Part shown: piece by piece, positions 45,837-63,861 of the stretch | How the letters are laid out: each line of letters starts with the position of its first letter | How positions within the stretch are numbered: the first letter of the stretch is position 1 | Translations under genes and position numbers: made by a program | Notes under the pieces: generated by a model | What the model was told of the DNA's origin: nothing | What the model saw: only the letters and a program-made list of their open reading frames with translations | Databases searched by the model: none | From: an uncultured Veillonellaceae bacterium | Lineage (GTDB): Bacteria > Bacillota > Negativicutes > Veillonellales > Negativicoccaceae | Assembly: GCA_945876385.1 (NCBI GenBank) | Contig: CAMCNU010000005.1 | Span: 1-64,000 of the forward strand | Length of the DNA: 64,000 bases | Direction of reading: 5' to 3'

Positions 45837-45865
45837 ACCGTTTAACCATTTAATTTCATACTGTA

Positions 45866-46013
45866 TTTCATCCAGAGTGACGGAGGGACCGGCCCTATGA
45901 TGTCGCGGCAACCATCTCGACCGAGAACGGTGCCAATTCCGACGGGCAACCGCCCGACAGATGAAGAAGACCGGATACACAACTCTTCATCTTTATGGTA
46001 TGAAGAGTTTTTT
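45866..46013 (+). promoter_or_regulatory. SAM-I (S-box) riboswitch with terminator
   Basis: The aptamer at 45866-45966 has P1 formed by TTCATC/GATGAA, the conserved GACGGAGGGACCGGCCCTATGA region and GCGGCAACC, which identify an S-box. The terminator AACTCTTCA/TGAAGAGTT plus T run is at 45981-46013. GATGAAGA (45960-45967) can instead pair with TCTTCATC (45984-45991) as antiterminator, so SAM binding should favour termination before metN. Confidence 0.95.
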
Positions 46014-62374: not shown

Positions 62375-62485
62375 TACCGTCTTCCCGACCGTTGCGATAC
62401 CAACAGCCGAGAAGCGCATCCGCGCTGACATGCGTACCGTCCTCTCTCCGTAAGCGCCGCATCGGGCGAGCACCCACGGTAAAAC

Positions 62486-62693
62486 GTGGCGCTCCCCGCA
62501 GGCGCGGGCACCGTCAGACACCTCTTCCGTCTCGGTGAGGGGCGGCCGCGCTCCGCAAGCGCGGGGCCGCATCAACAATTTTTTTGGCAAAGTAACCGCC
62601 CGGCGGCCGCGCTCTGCAGACACGGGGTCACCTGTAACCTTTGCGGTGAAGTTGACAGGCCGGCGGGTCACGTTCCGCAGACGCGGGGTCAGC
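62486..62693. repeat. Four degenerate tandem copies of a ~60-base GC-rich unit
   Basis: Copies start near 62486, 62542, 62603 and 62663, a period of 56-61 bases. The core reads like GCGGCCGCGCTCCGCAAGCG with hairpin potential (CCGC-loop-GCGG). On the minus strand the period is about 20 codons and the frame is open, but no ribosome site or known domain supports a protein. Confidence 0.7.
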
Positions 62694-62801
62694 GTACCGG
62701 ATTGTCACCCCGCAGCATGACGCGCCCCACACATTCAGTGCCGCCGTAACGCCGCTTGTCGCCCACCGGCGACACATGCATCACCAAAATGTGCGCAACC
62801 G

Positions 62802-62823
62802 AAAACAGAACCCGAAGGTTCTG
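62802..62823 (-). terminator. Terminator of the structured non-coding RNA
   Basis: On the minus strand CAGAACC-TTCG-GGTTCTG is followed by TTTT. The C(UUCG)G tetraloop is extra stable and supports minus-strand transcription. Confidence 0.8.
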
Positions 62824-63152
62824 TTGTCTGCAGTCCTGCTATGCAGTTTCGGATGAGATATGGCTTCCCTGGACCATACCTCACAAATATGAATAATGTT
62901 TCCTCAAACATTATCGTAAAAAGGATGCGGAGACAATCTCCGCGTAGGAGATGAACTGCCGATAATCGGCTATATACACGGGCATGCCCGTATCTGTAAA
63001 AAGAAAGGGGGAAGAGAATAATGTTCCCAGGCACTATTCTCTTCAAAAGGAGATGAACGCAACTTTTCCGTAGGCCAATACAGAAAAGCTACTCGGGGTG
63101 TTAGCCCCGTGAAGGATGATATGCAAAAGTTTTCCGAAGAAAACGATTTGCC
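62802..63152 (-). ncRNA. Candidate structured RNA under cobalamin riboswitch control
   Basis: On the minus strand about ten consecutive hairpins can form, among them GTTTTC-TTCG-GAAAAC (63128-63143), CGGGG/CCCCG (63093-63108), GAAGAGAATA/TATTCTCTTC, GCCGA/TCGGC, GCGGAGA/TCTCCGC, AATGTTT/AAACATT and GGTATGG/CCATATC. Between them lie CAUCC or CAUCUCC segments at 63114-63120, 63045-63058, 62944-62957, 62918-62927 and 62847-62857. Two of these read GUUCAUCUCCU, the complement of a ribosome site plus AUG (AGGAGAUGAAC). It follows the two riboswitches and ends in an intrinsic terminator. No open frame here has a ribosome site and coding character. I know no RNA family that matches; function is inferred. 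Confidence 0.6.
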
Positions 63153-63187
63153 AATAAAATGAGCCCCTCACGAAAACGAGAGCGGCT
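63153..63187 (-). terminator. Terminator in the platform of cobalamin riboswitch B
   Basis: On the minus strand AGCCGCTCTCG pairs with CGTGAGGGGCT (two mismatches) around a TTTT loop and is followed by CATTTTATT. Confidence 0.65.
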
Positions 63188-63233
63188 GTCAAGCCAACCT
63201 CCCCATCGCTCGTGAGTCAAACGGTTGTATCCG

Positions 63234-63377
63234 AACAGGCAGGTCTCCTGACTTCGCTTCCTCGCTCGTTTTCCCTTCTCGGTTGCCCAATGGTGATGAA
63301 AATTCGCTCTGCTTCACAGTGGCGGGACCGTGTCGGCTTTACACCGATCTTCCCTATTATGCCTTGCGGCACCTGTT
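63234..63377 (-). promoter_or_regulatory. Cobalamin riboswitch B
   Basis: On the minus strand the aptamer has the conserved core CCGCCACTGTGAAGC, the B12-box region AAGTCAGGAGACCTGCCTG, GGGAAGATCGGTG, and a P1 stem AACAGG/CCTGTT. It is a near-duplicate of riboswitch A 271 bases away, followed by its own terminator and then by the structured RNA rather than a protein gene. Confidence 0.93.
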
Positions 63378-63400
63378 GGTCATATATGTATTTCGTTCAA

Positions 63401-63440
63401 TAAAAAATCTCTTTACCATGACACGGCGTCAGTAAAGAGA
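63401..63440 (-). terminator. Terminator in the platform of cobalamin riboswitch A
   Basis: On the minus strand TCTCTTTAC pairs with GTAAAGAGA and is followed by TTTTTTATT, a strong intrinsic terminator between the two riboswitches. Confidence 0.9.
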
Positions 63441-63503
63441 GTATGCAAAATAGGTTTGCAGATTCTCCGTCCCTATCGCTCGTAGGTCAAATGGTGAATG
63501 TCA

Positions 63504-63648
63504 AACAGGCAGTTCTCCTGACTTTGCTTCCTTGCTTGTTTCGCCTTCTCGGTTTCCCAATGGCATACTGAAACTCGCTCTGCTTCACAGTGGCGGGACC
63601 GTGTCGGCATCACACCGATCTTCCCTATTAAGCCTCGCGGCACCTGTT
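63504..63648 (-). promoter_or_regulatory. Cobalamin riboswitch A
   Basis: On the minus strand the aptamer begins AACAGGTGCCGCGAGGC, contains GGGAAGATCGGTG and CCGCCACTGTGAAGC and closes with AGTCAGGAGAACTGCCTGTT, the typical cobalamin pattern. It lies just downstream of a consensus promoter. Confidence 0.94.
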
Positions 63649-63671
63649 CCTCTTCTTATGAACTTGACTAC

Positions 63672-63700
63672 ATTATAGACCCGTCGTCTCTTCTTGTCAA
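63672..63700 (-). promoter_or_regulatory. Consensus promoter of the tandem cobalamin riboswitches
   Basis: On the minus strand TTGACA (63695-63700) and TATAAT (63672-63677) are exactly 17 bases apart; the start would be near 63665, about 17 bases before aptamer A. Confidence 0.9.
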
Positions 63701-63861
63701 ATCTTTTTTTACGGTTTTTGCGAACTTTTCTTAATTCATGCATGCCGTTTACGCAACAGTCGGGCCTGTTTCTGCACAGGTCGCATACGGCAGGCGGTTT
63801 GTGCCTATCCGTCCTACTCGCTCCCACGTGCGCCGATTCGGCACGGACAGGCGACAACCAA
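63701..63861. other. Intergenic stretch without a recognised feature
   Basis: Between the riboswitch promoter and the terminator at 63862, I see no gene. Overlapping open frames on both strands have no coding signs. Confidence 0.5.

Follow-up and report, generated by a model that had tools for sequence, protein, structure and literature searches.

What does a pair of cobalamin riboswitches control when no protein gene follows them? The question is raised by one end of a 64,000-nucleotide stretch of DNA from an uncultured Veillonellaceae bacterium (the whole stretch is called the window here), in which a preliminary description had seen, on the minus strand, a promoter, two riboswitches for vitamin B12 (cobalamin) and then a series of hairpins. 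Comparison with related genomes makes it probable that the locus encodes a small regulatory RNA, gated by the two riboswitches, which would pair with the messenger RNA (mRNA) of a 548-amino-acid methylmalonyl-coenzyme A (CoA) mutase and block its translation at low B12. Judged from the same sequences, antisense pairing with the mutase mRNA appears a likelier mechanism than sequestration of a regulatory protein.

A stand-alone RNA gene behind two cobalamin riboswitches

The transcription unit is defined by the following elements.

63672..63700, minus strand: sigma-70 promoter, TTGACA-17-TATAAT, 12 of 12 consensus positions matched
63491..63662, minus strand: cobalamin riboswitch 1 (RF00174, 93.1 bits, E 7.7e-22, full-length)
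~63402..63439, minus strand: intrinsic terminator of riboswitch 1, CTCTTTAC...GTAAAGAG-ATTTTTT (direct sequence reading; arrangement shared by relatives)
63221..63390, minus strand: cobalamin riboswitch 2 (RF00174, 95.5 bits, E 1.6e-22, full-length)
63162..63187, minus strand: terminator-like hairpin of riboswitch 2, imperfect U run ATTTTATT (consensus scan and sequence reading)
62801..63160, minus strand: body of the non-coding RNA (fold z -7.4; kept in the order; no conserved frame)
62801..62826, minus strand: C(UUCG)G terminator of the RNA, AACAGAACC-TTCG-GGTTCTGTT-TTC (sequence reading and fold)

The consensus promoter and the two riboswitches were as first described, with both aptamers above the RF00174 gathering score of 31.5 bits. 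The claim that each riboswitch has its own intrinsic terminator holds well for the first; the hairpin after the second is weaker in the window, where its U run is imperfect, than in relatives. The description of a folded RNA of about 360 nucleotides closing in a C(UUCG)G terminator at 62826-62801 was borne out: the stretch 63215-62796 folds at -157.4 kcal/mol, compared with -114.7 +/- 5.8 kcal/mol for shuffled sequences (z -7.4), and none of 100 shuffles folded as well. Apart from the cobalamin aptamers, an Rfam scan of this stretch returned no family above threshold. When every frame of the RNA body was compared with relatives by tblastn, no conserved reading frame was found, in agreement with the earlier statement that no protein gene lies between the riboswitches and the final terminator. 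The tblastn matches were short, fell in all three frames and on both strands, and came mostly from one close relative, a pattern that nucleotide conservation alone would produce.

We grouped the related genomes into four families: f1, the window's own (G000 is the window's own genome); f2, Dialister-like; f3, without the mutase; and f4, Veillonella-like, which we infer to be Veillonella. Other genomes named here include G012 (Dialister succinatiphilus YIT 11850) and G001 and G033 (both uncultured Veillonellaceae). A DNA search of 40 relatives recovered the riboswitch region in 36, many of these matches being ordinary riboswitches, so the loci were read individually. In f1 and f2, one or mostly two riboswitches are followed by an RNA of 220 to 720 nucleotides with a terminator, while f4 has one riboswitch and a shorter RNA, mostly upstream of tRNA-Leu. 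A pattern scan of contigs gave nine matches, three of them in records from the group (two uncultured Veillonellaceae and Dialister succinatiphilus); the others, from unrelated phyla, were read as chance.

The gene that follows the RNA varies and may be nifS, tRNA-Leu, gpx, pnp, a copper-amine-oxidase-like gene, a UPF0597-like gene or others, which argues that the RNA is not a leader. In the window nifS follows the RNA on the same strand, and riboswitches and hairpins could together form a long leader of that gene; we find this hardly credible, as the downstream neighbour changes from genome to genome (in several it is a tRNA gene), the RNA closes in a strong terminator, and the start of nifS is about 470 nucleotides beyond it. 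The leader was rejected on the changing neighbours. That the locus encodes a stand-alone non-coding RNA under B12-riboswitch control, as first proposed, is well supported, because the gene is kept in 41 genomes, has varying downstream genes, its own promoter and terminator, and no reading frame. Promoter, terminator and varying neighbours would make it an independent transcription unit, as is expected of a trans-acting small RNA (sRNA).

Co-occurrence with the methylmalonyl-CoA mutase

Among 61 genomes of the order, 41 have the mutase gene and 20 do not, and the RNA gene is present in the same 41 and absent from the same 20. It was detected in 13 genomes by a hairpin model, in 27 by the pattern GGGCRTRCATN{0,8}CATCATC and in G144 by DNA similarity; an extra match to the pattern in G142 was discarded as chance because it lies on a different contig from the riboswitch matches of that genome. 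The genomes lacking both genes include (i) the entire family f3, (ii) separately, G006, and (iii) separately again, the genus that includes G009 and G024, which makes at least three joint absences.

By their coordinates, mutase genes and the RNA gene are 3 to 14 kb apart in six f2 genomes. In G015 and G018 the RNA gene comes directly after the mutase-decarboxylase operon; in G004 it is close behind an operon for a fused mutase, mutAB (discussed later). In the window's genome the 548-amino-acid mutase gene sits elsewhere, on contig 3, away from the RNA gene. The operon there encodes a CoA transferase, the mutase (548 amino acids), a B12-binding subunit (132 amino acids), MeaB, an epimerase and a carboxyltransferase-type decarboxylase, which together constitute the succinate to propionate route; the mutase needs B12 and acts between succinate and propionate.

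Complementarity between the RNA linkers and the mutase leader

The RNA contains single-stranded linkers, which read GUUCAUCUCCUU or variants of it and, in f4, UUCAUCAUC(A)UCCUAA. All three families that carry the RNA share a linker of the form UUCAUCUCC or UUCAUCAUC(A)UCC; UCAUUUUCCUCC is one of its variants. Three antisense linkers were read in the window.

63111..63120, minus strand: linker A, AUCAUCCUUC; complement of GGAGGAUGAU in the Shine-Dalgarno region of the mutase gene
63045..63058, minus strand: linker B, GUUCAUCUCCUUUU; complement, save for one bulge, of AGGAGGA(U)GAUGAAC in the mutase leader
62944..62956, minus strand: linker C, GUUCAUCUCCUAC, accessible pairing with the mutase leader, -12.6 kcal/mol net

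The expectation, set before the search, was that a linker might pair with leaders of B12-dependent enzymes. The linkers proved complementary to the Shine-Dalgarno region of the 548-amino-acid mutase gene, which reads TTTTTTAGGAGGATGATGAACACATG in the window's genome, TTTTTAGGAGGAAGATGAACTTATG in f2 and TTTTTTTAGGAGGATGATGAAAACATG in f4. Linker A, which is also present in G001, has eight contiguous Watson-Crick pairs with the leader of its own genome, or, by direct reading, ten if G-U pairs are counted; the duplex of linker B with the leader has an energy of -18.3 kcal/mol. In linker B (63045-63058, minus strand) and its counterpart in relatives, GGUUCAUCUCCUUU resembles the 3' end of 16S ribosomal RNA (rRNA), which we take to be GGAUCACCUCCUUU; such a likeness is expected of any sequence that pairs with Shine-Dalgarno sites.

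The same target emerged in the three families with the RNA. When seven f4 genomes were searched for the linker complement TTAGGATGATGATGAA with at most two mismatches, TTAGGAGGATGATGAA recurred in all seven with at most one mismatch, and this is the Shine-Dalgarno region of the mutase gene. In f1 and f2, the pattern AGGAN{0,2}GATGAAC matched the mutase leader in 11 of 11 genomes and had no other match in G002 and G004; the window's genome has four sites, namely two in the RNA itself, one in the mutase leader and one inside a coding sequence. Linkers and leaders also change together: most f2 linkers pair best with GGAAGATGAAC leaders and f4 linkers with GGATGATGAA leaders, and a swap test gave the best pairing of f2 and f4 linkers with their own leader type. 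Complementarity to a single target leader, a hallmark of trans-acting sRNAs, is conserved, and weak in G002, G003 and G144.

The linkers might serve a wider role, blocking many Shine-Dalgarno sites in the manner of RoxS or RsaE, with the mutase as one target of many. They do resemble the anti-Shine-Dalgarno sequence, several other start sites in G000 pair equally well or better, and a second site recurs in six of the seven f4 genomes (one or two mismatches), about 40 nucleotides upstream of a gene for a reductase-like haemoprotein. Against this, none of the 30 AGGAN{0,2}GATGAAC matches read is at another gene start that recurs across f1 and f2 genomes, and the mutase leader is unusually conserved. 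We consider the wider role rather unlikely, if worth keeping in view. The second f4 site complementary to the linker reads ATAGGATGATG(A/G)TGAA, and the haemoprotein gene has its own Shine-Dalgarno sequence; from its sequence, this gene is a possible second target in f4.

Controls and weight of the pairing evidence

Mutase leaders from outside the order contained Shine-Dalgarno sites, but none of the 20 had GATGAA in the spacer. In a search of 300 genomes of the class, the motif TAGGAGGAWGATGA was present within the order in 39 of the 41 genomes with a mutase; of the 20 TAGGAGGAWGATGA sites in genomes outside it, none coincides with a mutase start among the mutase matches listed. Between families the mutase leader is identical at 19 to 23 of 24 positions, whereas 16 other pairs of orthologs average about 10 to 11, and 14 at most. 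In f1, a second gene for this type of mutase has a leader without complementarity to the RNA, and the leaders of fused mutA genes pair worse with the RNA (-14.1 and -4.5 kcal/mol).

We compared the linker/leader duplex with those formed at other ribosome-binding sites, the background starts being drawn from the 64-kb window plus about 200 kb in G000 and from 200 kb each in G007, G012 and G037, by a simple script biased towards good Shine-Dalgarno sites. The statistics are strong in f4, with no equal or better site among 160 in G007 (z -5.4) or 169 in G037 (z -3.9). In D. succinatiphilus 2 of 156 sites were equal or better (z -2.6), and the result was modest in the window's genome (6 of 256, z -2.0). 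Running RNAduplex with the whole RNA against start sites, accessibility being ignored, was uninformative, as GC-rich stems dominate.

Several observations weigh against a specific action on the mutase. With accessibility considered, the mutase ranks 17th of 243 sites in the window's genome, energy alone not singling it out, and CU-rich linkers pair with any strong Shine-Dalgarno sequence. Both G002 and G003 pair poorly, with a longest run of only six pairs in each, and the G003 duplex (-11.8 kcal/mol) is no better than those of outgroup leaders; the G144 linker is degenerate, with about seven pairs. Shuffle tests of the longest run were not significant in most single genomes. For these reasons (energy, poor pairers and single-genome run tests), the case for the window's own genome rests on comparison. 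As for co-occurrence, the genomes are related and their concordance amounts to few independent events (the joint absences counted above), and the draft genome G030 has the RNA with only the fused mutase found.

The hairpins and the question of a captured protein

Between the linkers, the RNA body folds into hairpins, of which the following were delimited.

63060-63092, minus strand: hairpin with UUGGCC hexaloop, G4 but no A1 (kept in G000, G002 and G003 only)
63011..63044, minus strand: hairpin with octaloop CCUGGGAA (fold; model R2 match E 4e-5; covariation in the hairpin family)
62892..62915, minus strand: hairpin with GAGG/UUGAGGAA loop (fold)
62853..62884, minus strand: hairpin with octaloop CCAGGGAA (fold; model R2 match E 0.027)

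A first module covariance model, R1, captured only four pairs, misaligned stems of unequal length and was not used. The RNAs of f1 and f2 are hairpin series in which one to several hairpins have an nnAGGGAA(A) loop, often preceded by a linker such as GGUUCAUCUCCUU. Stems of these hairpins covary strongly (28 cells changed on both sides, compared with 8.1 in shuffles). The hairpin model matched 13 of the 61 genomes of the order, which are all 13 f1 and f2 genomes with the mutase, and had a few weaker extra matches elsewhere in them; across the same 61 genomes it found no nnAGGGAA(A) hairpin in f4. The hairpin series, which the preliminary description had proposed to seek in relatives, is thus only partly kept: its lasting parts are the linkers and, in two families, the nnAGGGAA(A)-loop hairpins. 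The GGGAA-loop hairpins are an added element of these two families, with stability or protein binding as candidate roles.

Repeated AGGGA (ANGGA) loop motifs on strongly covarying stems are what a sponge for CsrA, like CsrB or RsmZ, would present. There is next to no chance of this here, as CsrA is found in none of 40 genomes by a search that recovers it in the controls (Escherichia coli, Bacillus subtilis and Thermotoga maritima), and the AGGGA hairpins are missing in Veillonella-like f4. The CsrA sponge was rejected on the absence of the protein.

A second candidate protein comes from Rli55 of Listeria and EutX of Enterococcus, which are B12-riboswitch-controlled RNAs (PMC6317780, PMC8934654): made at low B12, the RNA would sequester the ANTAR response regulator, which is present in all these genomes. 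The logic of riboswitch and RNA is the same as in EutX and Rli55 (PMC6317780), an ANTAR protein was found in 40 of 40 relatives searched, and in the window's genome the regulator adjoins a HisKA_2/PdtaS-like kinase (locus L123:1885-3935, G000:C1), resembling an EutW/EutV-type pair. Moreover, a UUGGCC hexaloop with G4 occurs in three of the four f1 genomes. However, ANTAR sites require hexaloops with both A1 and G4 (PMC8934654). The loops of the window RNA include the hexaloops CUAACA and UUGGCC and the octaloops CCUGGGAA and CCAGGGAA; as the preliminary description had remarked, no loop is a hexaloop with A1 and G4, and the UUGGCC loop is absent from the other two families. The regulator, being universal, is found equally in every one of the 15 relatives (of 40) without the RNA, so its presence says nothing of an association. 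Family f4 lacks the GGGAA hairpins yet retains the linker that complements the Shine-Dalgarno region of the mutase gene, a complementarity that sequestration leaves unexplained. We therefore regard an ANTAR sponge as improbable. The general logic of Rli55 and EutX, to which the RNA had been likened, survives in part: a low-B12 RNA shutting off a B12-dependent pathway fits, while hairpins that catch a regulator are not supported.

Elsewhere in the window, GC-rich imperfect repeats (GACCCCGCGTCTGCGG... types) occupy 62450-62760 (minus strand) between the RNA terminator and nifS, and a riboswitch for S-adenosylmethionine (RF00162, 85.8 bits) lies at 45865-45967 (plus strand).

Proposed mechanism

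The promoter and riboswitches, the conserved RNA gene and complementarity, the co-occurrence with the mutase and the linkage in one family are read directly from DNA; we infer three further steps, namely transcription termination by B12 at this locus, pairing of the RNA inside the cell and repression as its result. In B. subtilis reporters, functional cobalamin riboswitches, including that of Veillonella parvula mutA, confer repression on corrinoid addition (PMC9600662); at low B12 the RNA should therefore be made and cover the mutase Shine-Dalgarno sequence. In the antisense mechanism we favor, scarcity of B12 would open the riboswitch terminators and allow the full RNA to be made, and its exposed linkers would pair with the mutase mRNA at the Shine-Dalgarno region and the spacer. 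Pairing would block translation of the mutase, in whose operon the 132-amino-acid B12-binding subunit, MeaB, the epimerase and the decarboxylase are also encoded, and the cell would cease production of an enzyme that is useless without B12.

A fused mutase of 730 residues is encoded by a mutAB operon that lies behind its own cobalamin riboswitch and terminator, although its products need B12.

G000:C1:160709-160877 and G007:C1:2013364-2013547: riboswitch arrangement of the fused mutAB operon

By coordinates, the arrangement is also found in G004, G021, G019 and G039. Because this operon has its own B12 riboswitch, one ligand could swap two B12-dependent mutases, low B12 freeing fused mutAB in cis while the RNA silences the 548-amino-acid mutase. 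We offer this isozyme exchange tentatively, as a possibility that is less likely than not to hold: all three families include genomes with both halves, and its reach is limited by the genomes with no fused mutAB (e.g., G002, G015 and G037).

If antisense control is correct, a B12-riboswitch-controlled RNA would act on a B12-dependent enzyme by base pairing with its mRNA rather than by capturing a protein, and this would explain how relatives of Veillonella and Dialister match the succinate-to-propionate route through the mutase to their B12 supply. These are gut and mouth bacteria, which probably halt mutase production once B12 is gone. The hypothesis specifies both target and site, and no published report of such an RNA was found in the open-access papers searched.

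Comparison with known systems

As in Rli55 and EutX, a cobalamin riboswitch with a terminator (responding to adenosylcobalamin in those RNAs) gates a non-coding RNA, which by analogy would be made at low B12 and lower a B12-dependent pathway. Unlike them, the RNA described here has no A1/G4 hexaloops, through which Rli55 and EutX, both belonging to eut, sequester the ANTAR protein EutV; it has tandem riboswitches in two families, and its conserved part is complementary to the mutase ribosome-binding site.

RsaE and RoxS are sRNAs that act in trans and block Shine-Dalgarno sites through C-rich seeds. The window RNA resembles them in its own promoter and terminator, exposed CU-rich linkers and complementarity to a ribosome-binding site, and differs in that its transcription is riboswitch-gated; the RsaE model RF01820 scored it at 17.7 bits (E 4.5), below the cut-off of 79. 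AspocR is the B12-riboswitch-controlled antisense RNA of Listeria pocR and is cis-antisense to its target. The shared feature is control of an antisense RNA by a B12 riboswitch, whereas the target of the window RNA lies elsewhere, on contig 3 of G000. Finally, a cobalamin riboswitch precedes mutA in V. parvula (PMC9600662), where riboswitch class and regulated product, a mutase, are the same; that riboswitch acts in cis on mutA, presumably the fused mutase, while the window RNA is complementary to the leader of the other, 548-amino-acid mutase. The RNA is best classed as a riboswitch-gated base-pairing RNA.
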